From: Gaiellales bacterium
GTDB lineage: Bacteria; Actinomycetota; Thermoleophilia; Gaiellales; JAICJC01
Reading direction: 5' to 3'
Assembly (NCBI GenBank): GCA_036273515.1
Contig: DASUHM010000091.1
Location: 1 to 48,951 of the forward strand
Length of the DNA stretch: 48,951 bases
The notes under the pieces: generated by a model
The model's database searches: none
What the model was told of the DNA's origin: nothing
The model's input: only the letters and a program-made list of their open reading frames with translations
Position numbers and translations under genes: made by a program
Part shown: piece after piece, positions 9,375 to 48,951 of the stretch
How positions within the stretch are numbered: the stretch's first letter is position 1
How the letters are laid out: each line of letters begins with the position of its first letter

Positions 9375-9679
9375 CTTTGCTCCCTTCCTCAGATACCGGC
9401 TGCATTTGCGGAGAACGCTGCTGGCCCGTTGCGCCACCCACCTTGGCCCTGGCCGATCCAGCCCCGGCGACCCACGACTCCTCCCCTTCGAACGAACGGC
9501 GCCGGATCGCGTGCGCCGGGTTGGTGCTTCGCAGGACGGGCGTCGGGCGCCGCGCAGCTGGCGGTTGTCAGCGCATGCACCGCACCGGCGGGCTCCGGCT
9601 CCCAGACGCTGTGGTCGGATACGTCGAGACGCTCGATCACAACGTCGATGCCAGGACGGCGGTCGCCACCGCGGTGGCT
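9375..9679 (-). other. 305-base intergenic region, no gene seen
   Basis: Open frames exist on both strands but their translations are Arg/Pro-rich with no recognisable motif. The region should contain the promoter of the SDR-GH15 operon and the end of the transcript of the upstream ThDP enzyme. I see no clear hairpin or promoter hexamer pair. Confidence 0.35.
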
Positions 9680-11470
9680 CTACCCGCGACCGGGGATGAT
9701 GGTGTCGGCCATCTGCTTTACCGACTGCGCGATCATTCCGCGGCGGTCGGAGTCGCCGTGCAGCACGGCTTGGGCGAAGTGCGTGGCCTGCTGGAAGGTG
9801 ATGTGTGGCGGCAGTGGTGGCACCGACGGGTCGGTGATCGCCTCCAGCACCACCGGCCGATCGGCGGCGAGCGCCTCATCCCAGGCAGCGCCTACCTGGT
9901 CGGGGTCGTCGACACGGATGCCGCGCAGGCCGACTAGCTCGGCGTAGCGGGCGTAGGGGAAGTCGGGGATGTCCTGCGAAGCGTCGTAGCGTGCATCGCC
10001 CTCCATCGCGCGCTGCTCCCAGGTGACCTGGTTCAGGTCGTCGTTGTGCAGGACCAGCACCACCAGGCGCGGATCGCTCCACCGCTGCCAGTACTTGCTG
10101 ATGGTGATCAACTCGGCGAGCCCATTCATCTGCATCGCCCCGTCGCCGACCATCGCGATCACCACCCGGTCGGGGTGCGCGAACTTGGCCGCGATCGCGT
10201 AAGGGACGCCCGGCCCCATCGTCGCCAGGTTGCCGGACAGCGACGCCATCATCCCCGTGCGAAGCCTCACGTCGCGCGCAAACCAGTTGGCCGACGAGCC
10301 CGAGTCAGAGCTGAGAATCGCACCGTCCGGGAGCCGCTTCGAAAGCTCGAAGAAGAGGCGCTGCGGATTGATCGGGTCGGCGCTCTCGAGCGCCCGCTTC
10401 GCCATCAACTCCCACCACTTCGCGACTCCTTCTTCGACGCCCTCGCGCCAGGAGCGCTCCTGCTTGCGCTCGATGAGCGGGATCAGCTCGCGCAGCGTTC
10501 CCTTCGCGTCGCCGACAAGTTGCACCTCCATCGGGTAACGGATGCCGATCATCCGCGCGTCGAGGTCGATCTGGACGCCGCGCGCCTTACCCTCCTCTGG
10601 CAGGAACTCCGAGTAGGGAAAGCTCGAGCCGACCATGAGCAGCGTGTCGCACCTCATCATCAAATCCCAGCTCGGCTTCGTGCCCAGGAGGCCGATCGCG
10701 CCGGTAACAAACGGCAGGTCGTCAGGCAGGACAGCCTTACCGAGCAGAGCCTTTGCGACGCCGGCACCGAGGAGTTCGGCGACCTCGACCGCCTCGTCGC
10801 CCGCGCCCAGGGCGCCCGCGCCTACCAGCATCGCCACCCGCTCGCCCTCGTTCAGCAGCGCGGCGGCGCGGTGCAGGTCGTCCTGCGCGGGCACGGTCCG
10901 CGGCGGCGAATAGCCCACTGCCGAGTGGATCGTGCCGTGTTCGTGCGGCGGCGACTCGACCGCCGGCATCGACGCGACGTCGTTGGGGACGATCAGACAG
11001 GTGACCGTGCGCTGATCCTTCGCGATCCGGACAGCCCGATCGACGAGGTGGCGCATCTGCTCGGGCACACAGCACATCTCAACGTACTCGTGGGCGACGT
11101 CCTTGAACAGCGTCGTCAGGTCGACCTCCTGCTGATAGGAGCCACCGAGGGCCGACAGCGCCTGCTGGCCGACGATCGCGACCACCGACTGGTGATCGAG
11201 CTTCGCGTCATAGAGACCGTTCAAGAGGTGGATCGCCCCCGGCCCTGACGTCGCCATGCAGACGCCCACCTCCCCGGTGTACTTCGCGTGCGCGCATGCC
11301 ATGAACGCCGCCATCTCCTCATGCCGCACCTGGATCAGCTCCGGATCGCTCTCAGCCCGGCGAAAGGCGCCCAGGATCGCGTTGATGCCGTCGCCCGGAT
11401 ACCCGTAGATGCGGTGGATGTCCCACTCCCGCAAACGGGCGAGCAGAAAGTCTGCAGTGTTCTCAGCCAC
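9680..11470 (-). CDS. Thiamine-diphosphate-dependent enzyme, pyruvate oxidase/dehydrogenase (PoxB)-like
   Basis: A 596-residue three-domain ThDP enzyme. The N-terminal pyrimidine-binding domain has the activating Glu in VRHEEMAAFMA and the motif TSGPGAIHLLNGLYDA. The central domain follows. The C-terminal domain carries the ThDP/Mg motif GDGAMQMNGLAELITI...HNDDLNQVTWEQR. The length and the E-R-MEGD-YDASQDIPDFPYA region are close to PoxB and other acetolactate-synthase-like enzymes, so oxidative or non-oxidative decarboxylation of pyruvate or another 2-oxoacid is likely. The GTG at 11470 is preceded by GAGGGAG at good spacing. It stands alone between intergenic regions in a stretch with other stress-type genes. 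Confidence 0.88.
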   Translation of the reverse strand: MAENTADFLLARLREWDIHRIYGYPGDGINAILGAFRRAESDPELIQVRHEEMAAFMACAHAKYTGEVGVCMATSGPGAIHLLNGLYDAKLDHQSVVAIVGQQALSALGGSYQQEVDLTTLFKDVAHEYVEMCCVPEQMRHLVDRAVRIAKDQRTVTCLIVPNDVASMPAVESPPHEHGTIHSAVGYSPPRTVPAQDDLHRAAALLNEGERVAMLVGAGALGAGDEAVEVAELLGAGVAKALLGKAVLPDDLPFVTGAIGLLGTKPSWDLMMRCDTLLMVGSSFPYSEFLPEEGKARGVQIDLDARMIGIRYPMEVQLVGDAKGTLRELIPLIERKQERSWREGVEEGVAKWWELMAKRALESADPINPQRLFFELSKRLPDGAILSSDSGSSANWFARDVRLRTGMMASLSGNLATMGPGVPYAIAAKFAHPDRVVIAMVGDGAMQMNGLAELITISKYWQRWSDPRLVVLVLHNDDLNQVTWEQRAMEGDARYDASQDIPDFPYARYAELVGLRGIRVDDPDQVGAAWDEALAADRPVVLEAITDPSVPPLPPHITFQQATHFAQAVLHGDSDRRGMIAQSVKQMADTIIPGRG

Positions 11471-39939: not shown

Positions 39940-40668
39940 TCAGGCGTGGAACGTCACGCCGCGGGTGAGCGCGACCAGGATCGACGCCTTCAGCTTGCTG
40001 GCGTGGGTGCCGGCGTCGGCCCACCAGCCCGGGAGCACGTCGAACGCCATCTCGCCGGACTCGATGTAGGCGTTGTTCACGTCGGTGATCTCGAGCTCGC
40101 CGCGGGCCGAGGGCTCGAGCGTCGAGACGATGTCGAAGACCCGGCCGTCGTACATGTAGCAGCCGGTCACCGCCAGGTCGGAGCGGGGCTGGGCCGGCTT
40201 CTCCTCGATCGCCGTCACCCGATCGCCCGCGACGACGGCGACGCCGAAGCGGCGGGCATCCTCGACCTGCTTCAGCAGGATGCGCGCGCCGGTCGGGCGG
40301 CTGCGGAACGCCTCGACGTACGGCGCCAGGTCGTCCTGGTAGACCTGGTCGCCCAGGATCACGCACACCGGCCCGTCACCCACCTCGGCGCGGGCCCTGG
40401 CCAGCGCGTCGGCGATGCCCGCCTCGCCCTCCTGGTGGGCGTAGGCGATCGACACCCCGAGCGCGCTGCCGTCGCCGAGCAGTGTCCGAACCTGGTCGCC
40501 GTGGCGGCCGACGACGACCACGAGGTCGGTCACGCCCGCCTTCTGCAGCGTCCGGATCGGGAAGTGGATCATCGGCTCGTCGAACAGGTCGAGGACGTGC
40601 TTGTTCACGACCCCCGTCATCGGGCCCAGGCGCGTCCCCAGGCCGCCCGCCAGCACGACTCCCTTCAC
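39940..40668 (-). CDS. rmlA: Glucose-1-phosphate thymidylyltransferase (RmlA-type, short form)
   Basis: A 242-residue nucleotidyltransferase that makes dTDP-glucose from dTTP and glucose 1-phosphate. It shows LAGGLGTRLGPMT with the catalytic Arg, NKHVLDLFDEPMI with the conserved Lys, ILGDQVYQ with the metal Asp, EEKPAQPRSDLAVTG, ELEITDVNNAY and WWADAGTH. It is about 50 residues shorter than enteric RmlA, as in many actinobacterial forms, and lacks the extra C-terminal allosteric part. GTG 40668 overlaps the rmlD stop as GTGA. It is the last gene of the rhamnose operon and abuts the convergent anti-sigma gene. Confidence 0.9.
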   Translation of the reverse strand: MKGVVLAGGLGTRLGPMTGVVNKHVLDLFDEPMIHFPIRTLQKAGVTDLVVVVGRHGDQVRTLLGDGSALGVSIAYAHQEGEAGIADALARARAEVGDGPVCVILGDQVYQDDLAPYVEAFRSRPTGARILLKQVEDARRFGVAVVAGDRVTAIEEKPAQPRSDLAVTGCYMYDGRVFDIVSTLEPSARGELEITDVNNAYIESGEMAFDVLPGWWADAGTHASKLKASILVALTRGVTFHA

Positions 40669-41468
40669 CGCTCGCCCTCCAGGTAGCGTCTCACCGAGTC
40701 GGCCCAGTCTGCCAGAGGCACGCCGAGCGCGCGCGCCCGGTCGAGGGCGAGGACGCTCGAGCGCGGCCGCGGGGCGGGCGCCCCGAACTCCGCGGTCGTG
40801 ATCCGCTCGACCGGGTGGCCGACGGCGATCTCCGCCAGGTCGGCCCACGTGCACGGCTCGCCGGCGCCGGTCACGTGCACGATCCCGGAGACGTCCAGGG
40901 TGACGAGGTAGGCGAGCGCCCGGGCGAGATCGTCTGCGGCGGTCGGCCGGCCGCGCTGGTCGTCGACCACCCGCAAGGTGCGCCCCGCCCGCTCGGCGGC
41001 GAGGATCGCGCGGAAGAAGTTGCGGCCGTCGCCGTACACCCACGACGTGCGCACGACGAGGTTGTCCGGCTGCTCCAGAACCGCGTGCTCGCCGGCGAGC
41101 TTCGAGCGGCCGTAGACCGAGATCGGGCCGGCCGAGTCGCTCTCGGCATAGGGCGCGTCGGAGTCCCCGGCGAACACGTAGTCGGTGGAGAGCTGGATGA
41201 CGCGGGCGCCGGTCTCGGCCACGTGCCGGGCGGCGTCGGCGTTGGCGGCGAAGGCGGCGGCCTCGTCGCGCTCGCAGCCGTCGACGTCCGTCATGGCCGC
41301 CGCGTGGACGACCACGTCGCCGGGCCCGAACGCGGCCCGCACCGCGCCGGCGTCGCGGACGTCGAGCGCCCCGCGGTCGAGGAAGACGGCCTCCGGCAGG
41401 AACCGGCGCAGCGCGCGGCCGACCTGGCCGTCCCCCCCGGTTACGAGAACGCGGGGATCAGATCCCAC
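40665..41468 (-). CDS. rmlD: dTDP-4-dehydrorhamnose reductase
   Basis: A 267-residue extended SDR that performs the last step to dTDP-L-rhamnose with NAD(P)H. It has VTGGDGQVGRAL at the N-terminus, the STDYVFAG strand with the catalytic Thr/Asp and VYGRSKLAGE (Tyr-x-x-x-Lys). GTG 41468 lies inside the end of rmlC (28-base overlap). RRYLEGER at the C-terminus overlaps the rmlA start. Confidence 0.93.
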   Translation of the reverse strand: MGSDPRVLVTGGDGQVGRALRRFLPEAVFLDRGALDVRDAGAVRAAFGPGDVVVHAAAMTDVDGCERDEAAAFAANADAARHVAETGARVIQLSTDYVFAGDSDAPYAESDSAGPISVYGRSKLAGEHAVLEQPDNLVVRTSWVYGDGRNFFRAILAAERAGRTLRVVDDQRGRPTAADDLARALAYLVTLDVSGIVHVTGAGEPCTWADLAEIAVGHPVERITTAEFGAPAPRPRSSVLALDRARALGVPLADWADSVRRYLEGER

Positions 41469-41968
41469 TGGAGGCCGGGGTTCCGGGAGTCGCGCTCGCT
41501 CACGACCGGCGGCCCGTCCAGATGCCAGTCGATGGCGAGGGTGGGATCGTCCCAGGCGACGCCGTTCTCGTCGTCGGGGTCGTACTCGCGCGTGACCCAG
41601 TAGATCAGGTCGATCTCGGTCAGGGCCAGGTAGCCGTGGGCGACGCCCGCGGGCACGTACACAGCGGTCGGCGTCTCGCCGTCGAGCACGAACGAGTGCG
41701 TGACCGGCACGCCCTGGCCCGCCCGCAGGTCGGCCAGGCCCACCTGCGCCCGGCCGGCGACGAGATACCAGAGGTCGGCCTGCTTTCGGTGGTAGTGCAG
41801 GCCGCGCAGCACGCCCCGGGCCGACCGGGAGTGGTTCGACTGCGCCATCGGCTCGGGCAGCGTCGCGGCCCGGAACACCTCGACGAAGCGGCCGCGGTCG
41901 TCGCCGTGTACCTGCGGCCGCCAGATGCGGACGCCGTCGATCGGGCTCGGGACGACCTCAGTCGGCAT
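41441..41968 (-). CDS. rmlC: dTDP-4-dehydrorhamnose 3,5-epimerase
   Basis: A 175-residue RmlC cupin. The catalytic His is in GVLRGLHYHRKQAD, the proton-donor Tyr in TREYDPDDENGVAW, and the substrate-binding PAGVAHGYLAL is intact. It epimerises C3 and C5 of the 4-keto-6-deoxy sugar. The order rmlB-C-D-A with 4 to 28-base overlaps indicates one transcript. Confidence 0.95.
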   Translation of the reverse strand: MPTEVVPSPIDGVRIWRPQVHGDDRGRFVEVFRAATLPEPMAQSNHSRSARGVLRGLHYHRKQADLWYLVAGRAQVGLADLRAGQGVPVTHSFVLDGETPTAVYVPAGVAHGYLALTEIDLIYWVTREYDPDDENGVAWDDPTLAIDWHLDGPPVVSERDSRNPGLQWDLIPAFS

Positions 41969-42950
41969 AGAGCCGCTCCGCCTCGGGGACGAGCGTCTGC
42001 CACCAGCCGGCGTGGTCGCGATACCACGCGACCGTCTCGGCGACCGCGTCCTGCACCGTCCGCGTGGCAGCCCAGCCCAGCGCCGCGACCCGGTCGGTCG
42101 AGACCGCGTAACGGCGGTCGTGCTGGGGGCGATCGTAGGCGCTCAGATAGACCGCGTCCTCGCCGGCGCCCGCCGCCCGCGCGACCATGCGCGCGATCTC
42201 GACGTTCGGCACCGCCTCTCCGGCCGGACCCAGGTTGTAGGCCGTGCCGGGCTCGCCCCTCTCCGCCAGGACGCGCAGGCCCGACACCGCGTCGTCGACG
42301 AACATCCAGTCGCGGATCTGCATCCCGTCGCCCCACACCGGCAGCCGCTCGCCCCGCAGAGCGCGGGTGGCCCAGCGCGGGATGGCCTTCTCCGGGTGCT
42401 GCCAGGGGCCGATGCAGTTGGTCGGCCGCGCGATCACCACCGCCAGCCGGCCGGCGTAGGAGCGGGCCAGGTCGTCGGCGAGCGCCTTGGAGCGGGCGTA
42501 GGCGCTGGTCGCGAGGCCCTCGCCCGGCAGCTTCTGATCCTCGCGGAACGGGTCGGCTGGGCACGGCCCGTAGATCTCGTCCGTCGAGATGTGGACGACC
42601 CGCTCGACGCCCGCCGCGACGGCGGCGTCCAGCACGTTGCGGGTGCCGTCGACGTTCGTGCGGAAGAAGGTGTCGCCGTCGTCCTCGCTACGGGTGACGT
42701 GCGTCTCGGCGGCGAAGTGGACGACGAGCGGCGGCCGCTCGGCCCGCACGAGCTCCGCAAGACCCTCGCCGGAGACGTCCATCCGCACGGTCTCGGCGAG
42801 GCCCGGGCCGACCTCGGCGAGGCGGCGCTCGTCGCCGGCGTAGGTGTCGGCGTCGACGTTCAGCACCGCCTGCCCGTCGGCCGCGAGCGCGCGCACGAAC
42901 GCCGAGCCGATGAAGCCGAGCCCGCCGGTGACGACGACGCGGCCGCTCAC
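41958..42950 (-). CDS. rmlB: dTDP-glucose 4,6-dehydratase
   Basis: A 330-residue extended SDR that converts dTDP-glucose to the 4-keto-6-deoxy sugar. It has VTGGLGFIGSAFV, the dehydratase-specific STDEIYG (catalytic Asp-Glu), YARSKALADD (Tyr-x-x-x-Lys), NCIGPWQHPEKAIPRW and RDWMFVDDAV. GTG 42950 overlaps the glycosyltransferase stop as GTGA, and its 3' end overlaps rmlC by 11 bases. Confidence 0.95.
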   Translation of the reverse strand: MSGRVVVTGGLGFIGSAFVRALAADGQAVLNVDADTYAGDERRLAEVGPGLAETVRMDVSGEGLAELVRAERPPLVVHFAAETHVTRSEDDGDTFFRTNVDGTRNVLDAAVAAGVERVVHISTDEIYGPCPADPFREDQKLPGEGLATSAYARSKALADDLARSYAGRLAVVIARPTNCIGPWQHPEKAIPRWATRALRGERLPVWGDGMQIRDWMFVDDAVSGLRVLAERGEPGTAYNLGPAGEAVPNVEIARMVARAAGAGEDAVYLSAYDRPQHDRRYAVSTDRVAALGWAATRTVQDAVAETVAWYRDHAGWWQTLVPEAERLYAD

Positions 42951-43885
42951 GCGAGCGCGCCCCGGTTGTGCTCCTCGGCCGCCTCCTCGATCGCGGGCTC
43001 GGCGTAGGGGTCGAGCGCGGCCTGGGCGTGCGCGCGGAAGCGGGCGGCGGCGTCGCCGTCGTAGCCGGGCAGGACGCGGGCCAGCGCCGCCCGGGCCAGG
43101 AAGGTGGCCGCGGTCAGCCGCTGCACGGCCCGCTCGCCGCCCGGCCCGTGGTGCTTGCGGGCGTAGATGCCGCGGCTGCGCGCGTGCTGATAGACGCGCC
43201 GCATCGGCACCGCGGCGGTCGAGGAGTTCTCGTGGTGGACGAGCCCGGCCTTCGGGAAGAAGGCGATCTCCCAGCCACGGTCGCGCAGCCGCCGGCACAG
43301 GTCGACGTCCTCGAGGTACATGTAGAAGCCCTCGTCGAGCCCGCCGACGCCCTCGACGGCGTCGCGGCGCACCATCATGGCCGCGCCGTGGATCCAGTCG
43401 ACCCGGCGGATGCGCTCGCCCCCCGACATGATCCAGCCGGCCCGCTGCAGCGTGAGCGTCGTCAGCGCGACCCGGCCGGGCGTGGGGAAGTGGAACGCCG
43501 ACGGCTGCGGGCGCCCGTCCGCATGCCGCAGGCGCGGCCCCGCTGCCGCGACGGCGCCGTTCTGGTCCATGAAGCTGCGCAGGCGGTCGATGCAGCCCGG
43601 GTCGAGCACGGTGTCGTCGTTCAGGATGAAGACGAGCCGGCCCTTCGCCCGGGCGCAGGCGAGGTTGTGGTTCGCGCCGAAGCCGCGCCGGATCCCGCCG
43701 GCGATCACCGTCACGTCGGGATGCGACTCGGCCACCGCGCCGGCGATGCCGACCGCGTTGTCGACGACGATCGTCTCGACGCTCGATCCCTCCGCGGCGG
43801 CGGGAATCGAGTCCAGGCACGCGCGCAGCAGGGCGACGTCCCCGCTGGAGACGATCGAGACGGTCACGTCGGGCGCGGCGGCCAC
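42947..43885 (-). CDS. Family 2 glycosyltransferase, probable rhamnosyltransferase
   Basis: A 312-residue GT-A enzyme: TVSIVSSGD, VDNAVGIAG, FGANHNLACARAKG, FILNDDTVLDPG (the DxD-like site), DWIHGAAMMVRRD and EGFYMYLEDVDLCRRLRDRG, the pattern of WbbL-type rhamnosyltransferases. It heads the dTDP-rhamnose operon, so it likely transfers rhamnose onto a cell-wall or surface glycan. GTG 43885 is chosen because TATTCT lies exactly six bases upstream; an ATG at 43924 would overlap the start of the divergent HIT gene. Confidence 0.87.
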   Translation of the reverse strand: MAAAPDVTVSIVSSGDVALLRACLDSIPAAAEGSSVETIVVDNAVGIAGAVAESHPDVTVIAGGIRRGFGANHNLACARAKGRLVFILNDDTVLDPGCIDRLRSFMDQNGAVAAAGPRLRHADGRPQPSAFHFPTPGRVALTTLTLQRAGWIMSGGERIRRVDWIHGAAMMVRRDAVEGVGGLDEGFYMYLEDVDLCRRLRDRGWEIAFFPKAGLVHHENSSTAAVPMRRVYQHARSRGIYARKHHGPGGERAVQRLTAATFLARAALARVLPGYDGDAAARFRAHAQAALDPYAEPAIEEAAEEHNRGALA

Positions 43886-43891
43886 GGCGGG

Positions 43892-43897
43892 AGAATA
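43892..43897 (-). promoter_or_regulatory. -10-like TATTCT, 6 nt before the glycosyltransferase start
   Basis: On the minus strand TATTCT ends six bases before GTG 43885. It favours this start and a leaderless mRNA for the rhamnose operon. Confidence 0.5.
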
Positions 43898-43922
43898 TGC
43901 CGTGTGCTGGAATAGGGCACCC

Positions 43923-44336
43923 ATGGACGACTGCCTCTTCTGCAAGATCGTGGCCGGCGAGCTGCCCTCGACGCGGGTCTACGAGGACGATCGCGTCGTG
44001 GCGATCATGGACATCTTCCCCGCCACCCGCGGGCACGCGCTCGTGATCCCGCGGGCGCATGCGAGGGACGTGCACGAGGTGGCGCAGGACGACCTGGCCG
44101 CGGCCGCCGCGGCCGCCAAGCACCTGGCCGGCGCCGCGGTGCGCGGCCTCGGCGCGGACGGCGTCACGATCATGCAGTCGAACGGCGCGGCGGCCTGGCA
44201 GACGGTGTTCCACTACCACGTCCACGTGATCCCGCGCTACGACGGCGATCCGCTCGTCCTGCCGTGGAAACCGGGGCCGGCTCCGGCCGATCCAGACGAG
44301 CTGGCCGATATAAGCCGGTCTTATTTTTCAGATTAG
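43923..44336 (+). CDS. HIT-family nucleotide-binding hydrolase
   Basis: A 137-residue HIT protein. It opens with CLFCKIVAGELPSTRVYED and has the histidine triad FHYHVHVIPR. HIT enzymes of this branch hydrolyse phosphoramidates or dinucleotides such as AMP-lysine and Ap4A. The last codons are unusually AT-rich and contain an inverted repeat (44310-44324) next to the promoter of the following operon. It is divergent from the rhamnose operon. Confidence 0.92.
   Translation: MDDCLFCKIVAGELPSTRVYEDDRVVAIMDIFPATRGHALVIPRAHARDVHEVAQDDLAAAAAAAKHLAGAAVRGLGADGVTIMQSNGAAAWQTVFHYHVHVIPRYDGDPLVLPWKPGPAPADPDELADISRSYFSD
44310..44328 (+). terminator. Inverted repeat ATAAG-CCGGT-CTTAT with T-run (terminator or operator)
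   Basis: A five-base stem with a five-base loop followed by TTTT lies inside the last codons of the HIT gene and touches the possible -35 (TTTTCA, 44325-44330) of the flavoprotein operon. The stem is weak for termination; an operator for the operon is equally possible. Confidence 0.3.
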
Positions 44337-44347
44337 AACGGCTTGGG

Positions 44348-44353
44348 TACCAT
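44348..44353 (+). promoter_or_regulatory. -10 TACCAT of the flavoprotein-fumarase-comA operon
   Basis: TACCAT ends seven bases before GTG 44361. TTTTCA at 44325-44330, 17 bases further up, matches TTGACA at four of six positions. Together they predict a leaderless operon transcript starting at or near the GTG. Confidence 0.5.
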
Positions 44354-44360
44354 CCGCTCC

Positions 44361-45557
44361 GTGAGCGATCTCCCCGGGCGTGCGGACGTGCTCGTGATCG
44401 GCAGCGGCGGCGCCGGTCTGGCCGCCGCATGGGCGGCGGCCGACGCGGGCGCCCGGGTTGTCCTCGTGACCAAGGGCTCGCGCGCATCCTGCAACACCGG
44501 CATGGCTCACGGCGGCATCCAGGCCGCCATGCACCCCGACGACTCGCCGGAGCGGCACGCCCGCGACGTGCTCGAGTCCTCGCACGGCACGGCCGATCCC
44601 GAGCTGGTCTCGGTGCTGACGTCCGAGGCGCCCGAGGCGATCGCCTGGCTCGAGTCGATCGGCGTCGAGTTCTCGCGCGACGGTGACGGCTACCGGCTGG
44701 CCCGCTGCGGCGGGTCGAGCATCCCCCGGCTGCTGCAGGTGGGCGACCGCACCGGCCACGTCATCGCCAGGTCGCTGCGGGCCGAGCTCGACCGGCGCGG
44801 CATCGCCATCCACGATCACACCGCCCTCGTCGCCCTCGAGCGGCCGAACGGCCACTTCACCGCGCGCCTGACCCAGGGCGACACGGAGCGCCGGCTCGAG
44901 GCCGGATCCGTCGTCCTGGCGGCCGGCGGCCGCTGCTACAAGGAGGCCCACGACGCGGGCATCCTGACCACGAACCAGCCCGGCTCGACCGGCGAGGCGA
45001 CCGCTCTCGCCCGCGGTCTGGGCGCCGACGTGCGCGACTACGACGCGCTCCAGCACCACCCCACCGGCGGCGCCTGGCCGCCGCCGCTCCAGGGCTTCTC
45101 GATCCCGGAGACGTGCCGCAGCTACGGCGCGACGCTCCGAAACGCCGAGGGAGAGCGCTTCTGCGACGAGCTCGCCCCCCGCGACACGGTCGCCGCCGCG
45201 ATCGTGCGCGAGTGCGAGGAGGGCCGCGGCCTGGCGACGCCCGACGGGCGCCCGGCCGTGCACCTCGACACGACTGCCATCGACCCCGAAATCGCCGGAG
45301 AGGTGATCCCCACAATGCTGCGCCGCTACCGCGCGGCGGGCGTCGACCCGCTGCACGAGCCGATCATGACCTACCCCGTCCTGCACTACCAGAACGGCGG
45401 CCTGCGCATCGACCAGCATGGCCAGACCACCGTCGAGGGCCTGTTCGCCGCCGGCGAGATCTCGGGCGGCGTCCACGGGCGCAACCGGATGATGGGGAAC
45501 TCGCTGCTCGACTGCGTCGTCTTCGGGCGCCGGGCGGGACGGGCGGCGGCCGCATGA
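44361..45557 (+). CDS. FAD-dependent succinate dehydrogenase/fumarate reductase/L-aspartate oxidase-family flavoprotein
   Basis: A 398-residue soluble flavoprotein, shorter than SdhA (about 580) and NadB (about 530). It has VLVIGSGGAGLAAAWAA (Rossmann motif), CNTGMAHGGIQAAM, GGRCYKE, QHHPTGGAW with the active-site His, and HGRNRMMGNSLLDCVVFGRR at the C-terminus. The site that carries covalent FAD in SdhA/FrdA (His in SHT) is Asn here, so FAD is probably non-covalent. It should oxidise or reduce a dicarboxylate-like C-C bond. It is followed with a 4-base overlap by fumarase alpha. An in-frame TTG at 44343 is an alternative start. Confidence 0.85.
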   Translation: MSDLPGRADVLVIGSGGAGLAAAWAAADAGARVVLVTKGSRASCNTGMAHGGIQAAMHPDDSPERHARDVLESSHGTADPELVSVLTSEAPEAIAWLESIGVEFSRDGDGYRLARCGGSSIPRLLQVGDRTGHVIARSLRAELDRRGIAIHDHTALVALERPNGHFTARLTQGDTERRLEAGSVVLAAGGRCYKEAHDAGILTTNQPGSTGEATALARGLGADVRDYDALQHHPTGGAWPPPLQGFSIPETCRSYGATLRNAEGERFCDELAPRDTVAAAIVRECEEGRGLATPDGRPAVHLDTTAIDPEIAGEVIPTMLRRYRAAGVDPLHEPIMTYPVLHYQNGGLRIDQHGQTTVEGLFAAGEISGGVHGRNRMMGNSLLDCVVFGRRAGRAAAA

Positions 45558-46453
45558 GCACCGTCGCATCGACAGATCTCGCCACCGCCGTCGAGGACGC
45601 CGCCGCCCACCTCTACGTGTGGGCGCTCAAGGACATCCCGCAGGACCTGCGTGACGCCCTCCGCGACGCCATGGGCCGCGAGACGCACAAGGTCGGAAAG
45701 CGCATCCTGGAGACGATCAACACCAACGTGTCGGTCGCCGACGAGCGGGGCAACCTCGTCTGCCAGGACACCGGCATCGCCGTCTTCTACGCCCGCGTCG
45801 GCGAGCGCTTCCCGCTGCACCCGGCCCAGATCGAGATCGCGCTGCGCGAGGGCACGCGCCGGGCGACGCTCGACCACCCGCTGCGCTCGAACACCGTCCA
45901 CACGCTGACGCGCAAGGCGACCGGCGACAACACCGGCCACCGCATCCCCCACATCCACTGGGAGTTCGTGCCCGACTGGGACGGCCTCGACGTGAAGTGC
46001 GTGCCGAAGGGCTCGGGCTCCGAGAACATGAGCTTCCTGAAGATGCTCGTGCCGGCAGACGGCGTGAAGGCGATCAAGCGCTTCGTGCTCGACTCGATCG
46101 TCGGCGCGGGCGGCAAGCCGTGCCCGCCCGGGATCGTGGGCGTCGGCATCGGCGGCTCCGCCGACCTGGCCATGCACCTCGCCAAGGAGGCGATCGCGCG
46201 GCCGGTGGGGACGCAGAACGACGACCCCGACGTGGCCGCGCTCGAGACCGACCTCTTCGCGCTCCTGAACGACACCGGCGTCGGGCCGATGGGCCTCGGC
46301 GGCGACACCACCGTGCTCGCCGTCCACGTCGAGCAGGCCCACACCCACATCACCCTGAACCCGGTCGCGGTCAACTACCAGTGCTGGGCGGCCCGCCGGG
46401 CCAGCGCCCACATCTCCGCGACGGGCGCCGTCGACTTCGACCGGGAGGCATAG
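45554..46453 (+). CDS. Class I fumarate hydratase, alpha subunit (N-terminal-type)
   Basis: A 299-residue iron-sulfur hydro-lyase subunit. The three cluster Cys are visible in LVCQDTGIAVF, GGKPCPPGIVG and NYQCWAARR, with KGSGSENMSF and GLGGDTTVLAVHVE as further signatures. With the beta subunit it adds water across fumarate or a similar unsaturated acid; members of the family also use tartrate, mesaconate and related substrates. ATG 45554 overlaps the flavoprotein stop (ATGA). The substrate is discussed in the findings because of the ComA neighbour. Confidence 0.9.
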   Translation: MSTVASTDLATAVEDAAAHLYVWALKDIPQDLRDALRDAMGRETHKVGKRILETINTNVSVADERGNLVCQDTGIAVFYARVGERFPLHPAQIEIALREGTRRATLDHPLRSNTVHTLTRKATGDNTGHRIPHIHWEFVPDWDGLDVKCVPKGSGSENMSFLKMLVPADGVKAIKRFVLDSIVGAGGKPCPPGIVGVGIGGSADLAMHLAKEAIARPVGTQNDDPDVAALETDLFALLNDTGVGPMGLGGDTTVLAVHVEQAHTHITLNPVAVNYQCWAARRASAHISATGAVDFDREA

Positions 46454-46454
46454 C

Positions 46455-47042
46455 GTGGCCCACCACGAGATCACCTTCCCCACCGACGAGGCCGCCGTCC
46501 GCGCGCTCCACGCCGGCGACACGGTCACGATCCAGGGCGAGATCGTCGGCATCCGCGACGCCACCCAGATCCGGATCTTCGACCACGGCCAGGAGCCGCC
46601 GATCCCGCTGCGCGGCGCGGCCCTCCTGCACACCGCCCCGAACGTGCGCAAGCTGGCCGACGGCTCGTACGAGCCGATGTGCATCGGCACGACCACGTCG
46701 GCGCGCATGAGCCGCTTCACCGAGGGCCTGATCCGCGACCACGGCGCCCGCGCCATCATGGGCAAGGGCGGGCTCCTGCCCGAGGCGCTCGAGCCGCTGC
46801 GGGAGCACGGCGGGGTCTATCTGGCCATCGTCGGCGGGGCCGCGGCCCTGGAGACGACCCAGATCGAGGCGATCGAGCAGGTCGAGTGGGAGGACCTGAT
46901 GCCGGAGTGCCTGTGGCGCTTCCGGGTGCGCGACTTCGGCCCGCTCATCGTCGGCATGGACAGCTACGGCGAGAGCCTCTACGAGAACGTCCAGGTCGAG
47001 GCGCGCAGGCGGCTCGACGATTCCATCTACGCGAGGTTATAG
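46455..47042 (+). CDS. Class I fumarate hydratase, beta subunit (C-terminal-type)
   Basis: A 195-residue partner of the alpha subunit: GDTVTIQGEIVGIRDATQIR, LLHTAPNV, GTTTSARMSRFTE, MGKGGLLPEAL and AIVGGAAALETTQIE are the usual fumarase C-terminal motifs. GTG 46455 follows the alpha stop by one base and CCGGGAGG lies upstream, so both are made together. comA begins three bases after its stop. Confidence 0.9.
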   Translation: MAHHEITFPTDEAAVRALHAGDTVTIQGEIVGIRDATQIRIFDHGQEPPIPLRGAALLHTAPNVRKLADGSYEPMCIGTTTSARMSRFTEGLIRDHGARAIMGKGGLLPEALEPLREHGGVYLAIVGGAAALETTQIEAIEQVEWEDLMPECLWRFRVRDFGPLIVGMDSYGESLYENVQVEARRRLDDSIYARL

Positions 47043-47045
47043 ACC

Positions 47046-47828
47046 ATGGTCGAGGAGTTCCTGGGATTGCCGATGCGCCCTCCCAAGCCGCGCGAGCGGG
47101 GCTGGACACACGTCATCGACAAGGGCATGAGCCTGCACGAGGTGCAGGGAATGATCGACATCGCCGGCGACTACGTCGACATCGTCAAGATGGGCTGGGG
47201 CACGTCGTACGTGACGCGCAACCTGGCCGAGAAGATCCGCACCTACCAGGAGGCGGCCATCCCGGTCATGTGCGGCGGGACGCTGCTCGAGGCGGCCATC
47301 GCGCGCGGCCGCGTCGACGAGTTCAAGCGCTGGACGCAGGGCTTCGGCTTCACGCATGTCGAGGTGTCGGACGGGACGATCCAGATCGAGCGCGACTCCA
47401 AGCTCGAGCTGATCTCGTCGCTGGCCGAGGAGTTCGTCGTCCTCTCCGAGGTCGGCTCGAAGGACTCGGAGTGCGTCTTCGCCCCCTACCAGTGGGTGGC
47501 GTGGATCAAGGAGGAGCTCGAGGCCGGCGCGGCCAAGGTCATCACCGAGGCCCGCGAGGGCGGCACGGCCGGCATCTTCCGCGGCTCGGGCGAGGTGCGC
47601 TCCGGGCTGATCGACGAGATCGTGCACGAGGTGCCGCTCGACAACCTGCTCTTCGAGGCGCCGCAGAAGGACCAGCAGGCTTGGTTTATCCGCCACCTCG
47701 GCCCCGAGGTGAACCTGGGCAACATCCCGCCCGAGGAGGTCATCCCGCTCGAGACCCTGCGGCTCGGGCTGCGCTCCGACACCATGGCCGACCTGCTTCT
47801 CCGAGACCTGCCCGTACCCCGCGCATGA
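47046..47828 (+). CDS. comA: ComA-family phosphosulfolactate synthase
   Basis: A 260-residue TIM-barrel protein of the ComA family (PF02679-type), which adds sulfite to phosphoenolpyruvate to give (R)-2-phospho-3-sulfolactate. Family-like segments are THVIDKGMSL, YVDIVKMGWGTSY, VMCGGTLLEAAIARG, HVEVSDGTIQIE, VLSEVGSKDSE and LLFEAPQKDQQ. The product is the entry to coenzyme M in archaea and Xanthobacter and to sulfolactate in Bacillus spores; plant HSA32 is a relative of unknown activity. Its stop overlaps cysH (ATGA), and CysH makes sulfite, the substrate, which strongly supports the assignment. No ComB phosphatase is seen in the window. Confidence 0.87.
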   Translation: MVEEFLGLPMRPPKPRERGWTHVIDKGMSLHEVQGMIDIAGDYVDIVKMGWGTSYVTRNLAEKIRTYQEAAIPVMCGGTLLEAAIARGRVDEFKRWTQGFGFTHVEVSDGTIQIERDSKLELISSLAEEFVVLSEVGSKDSECVFAPYQWVAWIKEELEAGAAKVITEAREGGTAGIFRGSGEVRSGLIDEIVHEVPLDNLLFEAPQKDQQAWFIRHLGPEVNLGNIPPEEVIPLETLRLGLRSDTMADLLLRDLPVPRA

Positions 47829-48532
47829 GCGCCGTGCTGCCCATCTCCGTCGACGAGGCGGCCAGCCTCGCCGACGAGTTCGAGTCGCGCCCGGCCGAGG
47901 ACCTGGTGCGGTGGACGGCCGAGCGCTTCGGCGAGCGCGCCGTGCTCACCTGCTCGTGGCAGAAGCAGAGCTCGGTGCTCGTCCACATGCTCTCGGAGGT
48001 GGCACCGAGCTTGCGGGTGGTCGAGTTCGACACCGGCCTCCTCTTCCCGGAGACCTACGACACGCGGGAGAAGCTGATCGCCCGCTACCCGATCAAGTTC
48101 GAGCGCATCGAGCCGGAGCTGACCGTCGAGCAGCAGGCCGCCGCCCACGGCGACCGGCTCTGGGAGCGGGATCCGGACGCGTGCTGCGGCATGCGCAAGG
48201 TCGCGCCGCTGGAGCAGGCACTGCGCGGGATGGACGCCTGGATCACGGGAATTCGCCGCGAACAGTCGACAACTCGCCAAAACGCACGCAAGATCGAGGT
48301 GGACGACCGTCGCGGCGTCGTCAAGGTGCAGCCACTTGCCGACTGGACAAGTCGCGACGTGTGGCGCTATATCTGGAGGCACGGCATTCCGTACAACACC
48401 CTGCACGACCATGGATATCCGTCGATCGGGTGCATGCCGTGCACGACGTCGGTGAACGGCACGTCATCCGACGAACGGGCAGGACGCTGGCGTGGCACGG
48501 GCAAGATCGAGTGCGGCCTGCACGGCCGCTGA
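47825..48532 (+). CDS. cysH: Assimilatory APS reductase (adenylyl-sulfate reductase, [4Fe-4S])
   Basis: A 235-residue CysH-type reductase. Both Cys pairs of the iron-sulfur APS reductases are present, ACCGMRKVAPL and IGCMPCTTSV, so APS rather than PAPS is the likely substrate. The catalytic Cys lies in IECGLHGR near the end and the nucleotide loop in TCSWQKQSSVL. It reduces adenylyl sulfate to sulfite with thioredoxin. Being translationally coupled to comA, its sulfite could go straight to sulfonate synthesis as well as to cysteine. Confidence 0.93.
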   Translation: MSAVLPISVDEAASLADEFESRPAEDLVRWTAERFGERAVLTCSWQKQSSVLVHMLSEVAPSLRVVEFDTGLLFPETYDTREKLIARYPIKFERIEPELTVEQQAAAHGDRLWERDPDACCGMRKVAPLEQALRGMDAWITGIRREQSTTRQNARKIEVDDRRGVVKVQPLADWTSRDVWRYIWRHGIPYNTLHDHGYPSIGCMPCTTSVNGTSSDERAGRWRGTGKIECGLHGR

Positions 48533-48589: not shown

Positions 48590-48951
48590 GTGCACGAGAA
48601 CACTCAAGGCTTCACCCTCTGGTTCACCGGGTTGTCCGGTTCCGGCAAGACGACCATCGCCCGGATCATCGGGCCTGAGATCGAGCGGCGCGGCGTCCTG
48701 GTCGACCACCTGGACGGTGACGTCGTTCGCACGCATCTCAGCAAGGGCCTCGGCTTCTCCCGCGAGGACCGCGACGCGAACATCCTGCGCATCGGCTTCG
48801 TCTCGAAGCTCCTGACCCGCCACGGCGCCGGCGTCATCGTCGCCGCCATCTCCCCGTACGCCGAGACCCGCGGCATGGTCCGCGACATGATCGGCAGCGT
48901 CGGCAACTTCGTCGAGGTGTACGTGGCGACCTCGCTCGAGGAGTGCGCGCG
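48590..48951 (+). CDS. cysC: Adenylyl-sulfate kinase (partial, cut by window end)
   Basis: The first 120 residues of APS kinase, which makes PAPS from APS and ATP. It has the P-loop [11 protein letters not shown], the APS-binding [26 protein letters not shown], and [11 protein letters not shown] in the expected order. The gene continues past the right edge. GTG 48590 is preceded by GGAAAGGAACGAG. With cysH upstream, the cell can route APS either to reduction or to PAPS. The sulfate adenylyltransferase genes that would make APS are not in the window and may follow. Confidence 0.93.

Follow-up and report, generated by a model that had tools for sequence, protein, structure and literature searches.

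A comA-linked gene unit of Thermoleophilia that may turn sulfate into 3-sulfopropionate

Introduction

ComA-type phosphosulfolactate synthases are known from Bacillus and from methanogens, where sulfolactate goes into spores or is converted into coenzyme M via ComB-E. The bacterial coenzyme M pathway of Xanthobacter (XcbB/C/D/E) also has a ComA homologue at its start and employs lyases of the aspartase/fumarase superfamily (AFS) and a desulfhydrase. One of the AFS members, XcbC, strips phosphate from phosphosulfolactate to give sulfoacrylate. Papers by Partovi (2018) and Wu (2022) deal with this pathway. PMC11489063 cites a thesis according to which Roseovarius nubinhibens breaks 3-sulfopropionate down through sulfoacrylate and sulfolactate. 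Here we describe a gene unit around comA in the window, i.e. the whole 48,951-base stretch analysed, which is one entire contig (DASUHM010000091.1) from the genome of a Gaiellales soil bacterium (GCA_036273515.1; 4.07 Mb in 98 contigs).

The unit lies at the right end of the window on the plus strand and comprises, in this order, frdA-like, fumA, fumB, comA, cysH and cysC genes; it runs from the frdA start at 44343 to cysC at 48590, and is truncated by the contig end at 48951. Its ComA resembles Bacillus subtilis YitD (1u83) and methanogen ComA (1qwg) in family, over nearly the whole length and in catalytic-site residues, whereas the neighbours of comA are fumarase-like and fumarate-reductase-like and the unit holds no comB. 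Where the Xanthobacter pathway relies on AFS lyases and a desulfhydrase, the unit encodes a class I hydro-lyase and a reductase, and no XcbC over the family cut-off was found. With the route described for Roseovarius it would share the same three intermediates, yet that route is catabolic, and the one considered here would, by gene context, be biosynthetic.

Results

We propose, with a probability of roughly 40%, that the unit serves to convert sulfate into an organosulfonate, via sulfoacrylate to 3-sulfopropionate. Sulfate would be activated by CysC, encoded in the window, and Sat, encoded downstream in relatives, and CysH would then yield sulfite. ComA would join sulfite to phosphoenolpyruvate (PEP) to form phosphosulfolactate; these first steps, from sulfate to sulfite and the addition to PEP, are well supported. 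A phosphatase encoded outside the unit, of the ComB type or another, would release 3-sulfolactate, which corresponds to malate among the sulfonates. Dehydration by the comA-linked FumAB could turn it into 3-sulfoacrylate, the fumarate analogue, and the FrdA-like protein could reduce the latter to 3-sulfopropionate, the succinate analogue. Relatives encode a TauE-family carrier downstream that may export this product. The TauE of Enterococcus gilvus is named as a probable 3-sulfopropionate exporter in PMC11489063. Beyond sulfite, we infer each substrate, the direction in which FumAB and FrdA work and what is finally made; the sulfoacrylate and sulfopropionate steps themselves we hold to be plausible, at somewhat short of an even chance.

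The unit is conserved in the window's order. A PF02679 search, which among the control genomes matched only Bacillus subtilis and Methanocaldococcus, found comA in 103 of 129 genomes of the order. The tally covers 93 main loci; it excludes ten of these genomes, in which comA is fragmentary or present solely as a divergent second copy, along with seven second-copy loci. Neighbours were called by tblastn with the window proteins, on the same strand and only where the contig reaches far enough. On this basis frdA stands beside comA in 73 of 82 testable loci and fumB in 71 of 90, with fumA nearby in 65/84 and cysC in 55/82; frdA or fumB adjoins comA in 82 of the 93 loci. In 64 of 88 testable loci, the gene directly 3' of comA is a cysH in the same orientation, five more loci being untestable at contig ends. 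The complete order frdA-fumA-fumB-comA-cysH-cysC is the most frequent arrangement (38 loci), and frdA-fumA-fumB-comA without cysH occurs at 10. In family f2 (f1 to f12 are arbitrary family labels) comA is followed by frdA only. Downstream of cysC, relatives have sat or genes of the cysD/N type, as well as genes for carriers of the TauE family; among the 80 named loci, ten unit carriers have sat and eleven have TauE. The named carriers are metagenome-assembled genomes of Thermoleophilia, including one Gaiellaceae.

An earlier note, made from the DNA of the window alone, had placed comA and cysH in one translationally coupled unit. The ATGA common to the comA stop and the cysH start is present (47825..47828), and the linkage of the two genes is conserved, so that the functional context claimed for ComA stands in part. 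The unit was drawn too narrowly, however: it begins as far back as frdA, 47046 to 48532 being only its middle part, and the better-conserved partners, the FrdA-like flavoprotein and FumAB, were missed. The coupling as the essential feature was rejected, with frdA and fumAB bound to comA at least as tightly; exactly four shared bases were counted at 33 of 54 frdA/fumA junctions versus 7 of 62 comA/cysH junctions, overlap lengths being approximate because start codons were picked by script. In families f2, f6 and f10, moreover, the comparison of neighbourhoods that the note suggested gives no cysH link, and its interpretation is partly supported overall.

Across the class, comA occurs in 185 of 354 genomes. 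Outside the order we inspected 40 chosen loci (12 from f6, 8 from f12, 17 from f10 and 3 from f11), 7 of which had no comA frame in the clustering based on open reading frames. In f6, frdA is directly upstream of comA at 12/12 loci and sat lies downstream at three. In f12, fumAB is directly upstream of comA at two of the eight loci and 7 kb off at one, with TauE near five. None of the unit's partner genes (frdA, fumAB, sulfur genes, TauE) was found around comA in f10 and f11. The ComA homologues that Bacteroidota and further phyla encode are 53-58% identical; beside them there is neither a sulfur nor a fumarate gene, and they have no metabolic neighbour in common (33 loci, at 5 of which no comA frame was parsed). 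This makes the context a trait of some Thermoleophilia and not of the ComA family. These homologues and the f10 copies, which lie between LytR_C and polysaccharide genes, would be accounted for if ComA were an HSA32-like homologue with another role, next to sulfur genes for other reasons. With the recurrent linkage to cysH, cysC, sat, TauE, frdA and fumAB and the conserved residues of ComA set against it, we consider this explanation unlikely. At the f10 loci L189-L204 and L208, comA belongs to a cluster of polysaccharide genes (for a CapD-like epimerase, a LytR_C protein, Wzy and a flippase) that is free of sulfur genes. A gene for a LysR-type regulator lies 5' of frdA-comA at all eight parseable f6 loci, e.g. 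at 3967-4857 of L169, the one locus on which Pfam was run.

The frdA-like gene (44343..45557; start uncertain, TTG at 44343) encodes a short flavoprotein of 404 amino acids from the fumarate reductase/L-aspartate oxidase superfamily (FAD_binding_2, E=3e-73). According to an AlphaFold model (predicted local distance difference test score, pLDDT, of 91), it has the full flavin adenine dinucleotide (FAD) and capping fold and shares this fold (template modelling score, TM, ~0.88 to E. coli FrdA) and the catalytic residues with NadB, FrdA and SdhA, but it is devoid of their C-terminal domain. It also stays below all listed NCBIfam equivalog cut-offs for FrdA, NadB and SdhA, the best match being nadB with 273.6 versus 452.75 bits. 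A profile (A2) built from 11 comA-linked copies gives 692 bits with the window protein, 246 with the NadB and 232 with the SdhA of the same genome; across 80 genomes, full-length FrdA proteins of the comA type score 612-692 bits and the next paralogue 273. In f2 and f6, 37 of 38 near-full-length profile matches adjoin comA; in the remaining case, G177, frdA and comA each lie at a contig end. These sequence comparisons set the FrdA-like proteins apart as a short subfamily of their own that is bound to comA.

Residues of fumarate reduction that serve catalysis and proton relay are kept (H239, E256, R259, R280, H348, R382), whereas the substrate-binding stretch has changed. The T/S-E-x-x-R-G-E-G motif of fumarate reductase, SdhA and NadB is replaced by P-E-T/A-x-R-x-Y-G in 81/81 comA-linked FrdA sequences (all copies with data; the row of L131 was excluded as a paralogue), so that Pro255 takes the place of the Thr in the TEGxR of fumarate reductase, and RGEG becomes R-x-Y-G with Tyr for Glu. 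The genome's own NadB and SdhA read SEAVRGEG and TEGCRGEG. In fumarate reductase structures, the Thr of TEGxR contacts a carboxylate of the substrate. We read the protein as a putative C=C reductase with an altered second anchoring site, which would suit a sulfonate instead of a carboxylate; this is a fit and not a proof. A kinship with the dissimilatory adenosine 5'-phosphosulfate (APS) reductase AprA was rejected: no APS reductase is among the 53 PDB matches (1e-10), and the fumarate-type residues are retained.

The frdA stop and the fumA start share the ATGA at 45554..45557. fumA (45554..46453; Pfam Fumerase PF05681, E=7e-91) and fumB (46455..47042; Fumerase_C PF05683, E=5e-30) encode the alpha and beta subunits of a hydro-lyase of the class I (Fe-S) fumarase/tartrate dehydratase type, and FumA exceeds the NCBIfam fumarate hydratase model NF004885 (312.6 vs 276 bits; the query for the Pfam and NCBIfam runs began one codon late, at 45557 instead of 45554). 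Like class I fumarases and L(+)-tartrate dehydratase, the pair is of a two-subunit Fe-S hydro-lyase type, and its conserved cysteines are in place along with the motifs QDTG, TTSAR and GKGG. The beta-subunit motif RDxAH of fumarases and the tartrate dehydratase homologue, on the other hand, is missing from comA-linked FumB, which has RDxTQ: RDxT is found in 71/71 copies, followed by Gln in 69/71, as opposed to RDEAH in three PDB relatives. Against Pfam, the ordinary FumAB encoded by eight f12 genomes (RDxAH, GPTTSGRM or near variants) scores 377-390 bits; three of these genomes also have the comA type (RDxTQ, GTTTSARM), which scores 304-317 bits. Going by motifs and scores, comA-linked FumAB is a distinct subfamily beside these ordinary enzymes. 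FumA was found in 0/11 f2, 0/29 f6 and 0/17 f10 genomes tested. The sole FumA of the window's genome is the unit copy; FumAB as the cell's only fumarase was nevertheless rejected, because a class II fumarase-like protein is encoded elsewhere. The best PDB match of the latter is a class II fumarase (522 bits), and in NCBIfam it falls between aspartase and fumarase, under both cut-offs.

Alternatively, the unit could end at 3-sulfolactate, as in Bacillus spores, with FumAB and the FrdA-like protein as ordinary malate/fumarate/succinate enzymes that handle carbon around PEP. The canonical catalytic residues kept in both enzymes agree with this, and so do six genomes that carry comA-cysH-cysC without frdA or fumAB. 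Nonetheless, the unit's FrdA and FumAB are distinct subfamilies that co-occur with comA where searched, other parts of the genome encode canonical SdhA and NadB as well as the class II fumarase-like protein, f12 genomes possess separate ordinary FumAB, and the substrate-binding Thr of FrdA has been replaced. We regard an end at sulfolactate as doubtful and favour reduction to 3-sulfopropionate.

The comA gene (47046..47828; ATG to TGA, 260 amino acids) encodes a phosphosulfolactate synthase homologue that matches PF02679 along the full domain (E=8e-88; 294 bits, cut-off 25.2). Its PDB matches, YitD (E=1e-66) and methanogen ComA (E=3e-46), extend over nearly the whole length. A comparison with the archaeal enzyme, as the earlier note had advised, agrees with its assignment: the residues common to the archaeal and Bacillus structures are retained, with E135 and R239 in 134/134 sequences and K139, which aligns with Lys137 of the M. 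jannaschii enzyme, in 133/134. The NCBIfam equivalog for archaeal ComA, TIGR03849, is not reached (260.7 vs 280 bits). ComA probably fixes sulfite.

FrdA and FumAB might instead act before ComA, each forming an unsaturated acid from a saturated or hydroxy acid for the addition of sulfite; one partner would then suffice, and the product would be a sulfonated dicarboxylate or related acid in place of phosphosulfolactate. Such an order would account for the frdA-only families f2 and f6 and the fumAB-only comA loci of f12. The retained residues that ComA has in common with phosphosulfolactate synthases of known structure speak against it; we also know of no ComA that uses an acceptor other than PEP. 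We therefore deem it improbable and keep ComA ahead of the other two enzymes in the proposed route.

No comB was found next to the comA of the unit; comB matches lie elsewhere and adjoin only a divergent second comA copy. This copy, 30% identical to that of the window, occupies 9403-10236 of locus L034 (G000:C43), followed by a comB homologue at ~10187-10879; ATP-grasp and polysaccharide genes adjoin the pair, and matches placed alike occur in G120, G067, G093 and G117. At four f12 and two f10 loci (L182, 9473-10147; L181, L183, L186, L191, L199) a histidine-phosphatase-type protein is encoded directly 3' of comA, a candidate phosphosulfolactate phosphatase (Pfam was run on L182 only). The comA frame at 7595-9217 of L200 has 541 amino acids, with some 288 residues ahead of the ComA domain that have no Pfam match.

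cysH (47825..48532; ATG to TGA, 235 amino acids) encodes a reductase for APS or its 3'-phosphorylated form, PAPS (PAPS_reduct PF01507, E=9e-53; 265 bits to the equivalog NF002537, cut-off 154), and its product is the only PF01507 protein in the genome. cysC, an APS kinase gene (48590..48951; PF01583, E=2e-40), is incomplete at the contig end. Among 71 CysH copies, 70 have ECGLH or ECGIH and 58 have CC...CxxC. The window protein has CC...CxxC and ECGLH, which we take to mark an APS-type reductase. NIR_SIR, a domain common to siroheme sulfite and nitrite reductases, was found in 32 of the 129 order genomes (15 of 43 of high quality; 11 of 14 controls) and was not detected in 45 of the 64 genomes with adjacent comA-cysH (15 of 23 of high quality). 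Sulfite is therefore plausibly made for ComA, with CysH as its sulfite-forming partner, as the earlier note had assumed. No NIR_SIR was detected in any of 11 f12 genomes; it is present in 26/29 f6, 17/17 f10 and 3/3 f11 genomes. Most f2 genomes are devoid of it although their comA has no adjoining cysH, which counts against a simple rule.

A search for XcbC-like lyases found no protein over the XcbC family cut-off (575 bits) in any of 80 genomes. The best NCBIfam match of three XcbC-like proteins tested is XcbC (368-421 bits) versus ArgH (241-247 bits, below its own cut-off). Such proteins are present in 21/23 f6 and 7/11 f2 genomes, i.e. in 28 of 34 FrdA-comA genomes free of FumAB, and in 5/33 f3 genomes. 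The 64 genomes with comA-linked frdA divide into 25 with FumAB only, 28 with an XcbC-like protein only, 5 with both and 6 with neither; one match (G389) is an ordinary ArgH, and leaving it out turns its cell's 7 into 6. This is the pattern to be expected if sulfoacrylate had two alternative sources. The lyase genes of f2, f6 and the few f3 genomes (L320, L329, L334 and similar) are orphans, and no shared sulfur or sulfonate neighbours were recognised around them.

The XcbC-like proteins of f2 and f6 are also what one might expect if the route resembled that of Xanthobacter and ended in a coenzyme-M-like thiol, with sulfoacrylate supplied by FumAB or by the XcbC-like lyase. The XcbC cut-off, passed in 0/80 genomes, and the absence of coenzyme M genes adjoining comA stand against this, and the reductase beside comA has no role in the Xcb route as set out in PMC11507031. 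Xcb-type coenzyme M synthesis was rejected on the cut-off, and a coenzyme-M-like end product altogether seems very improbable compared with 3-sulfopropionate.

Around the unit, a HIT-domain protein of 137 amino acids is encoded at 43923..44336 on the plus strand (PF01230, E=1e-26); it is a possible first gene of uncertain membership, also found 5' of frdA at L036 and L209 of the window's family. The adjoining minus strand (39940-43945) carries nucleotidyl transferase, RmlD-type and glycosyltransferase genes for sugars or polysaccharides. A promoter/terminator scan gave no promoter-like site, and two terminator-like sites against 0.9 expected.

Discussion

Several points weigh against a route to 3-sulfopropionate. 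The enzyme functions in the unit are predicted from sequence, a structure model and gene context. Phosphatases of the ComB type occur in 107 of 129 order genomes, are unlinked to comA and are present also in genomes without it, and the six genomes with comA-cysH-cysC show that frdA and fumAB may both be missing. Since f2 and f6 have no FumAB, FrdA and FumAB need not work together. The XcbC-like proteins that might stand in fall short of the family cut-off and their genes are unlinked to comA; their search covered genomes outside f10 (a family with comA but without frdA or fumAB), and the Fisher p of 3e-5 overstates the evidence because the complementarity of FumAB and XcbC-like proteins is mostly a contrast between clades. 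Finally, all five f1 genomes, the window's included, encode a NIR_SIR protein, which is closer to nitrite reductase models (NirA-like; tested on the window's genome).

More tentatively, we suggest a dedicated pathway that would mirror the reductive arm of the citric acid cycle, sulfite replacing CO2 (PEP to phosphosulfolactate, sulfolactate, sulfoacrylate and 3-sulfopropionate). Relatives of fumarase and fumarate reductase would have been recruited, with an XcbC-like lyase for fumarase in some families. In many Thermoleophilia of soil and freshwater that have no detectable sulfite reductase, most reduced sulfate could end up in this pathway, and these bacteria would hence be sulfonate producers. 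In a literature search that mostly covered papers outside subscription, we did not find sulfolactate, fumarase and fumarate reductase together; the pathway may nonetheless have been published. Thermoleophilia and sulfolactate are mentioned together in a soil-microbiome study, and neither sulfolactate nor sulfonate occurs in the Gaiella occulta genome paper (PMC6741124).

The unit thus points to what may be a new way of making natural sulfonates, one open to bench testing. Sulfonates make up a large share of soil organic sulfur. Known bacterial makers of C3-sulfonates are few, and the unit would add a set of enzymes dedicated to this task, for which there is one testable prediction, the conversion of sulfolactate through sulfoacrylate into 3-sulfopropionate. 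It supplies a functional setting for one branch of the ComA family, which also contains proteins of unknown activity, and may be the reason why many Thermoleophilia retain sulfate activation and CysH without a detectable sulfite reductase.

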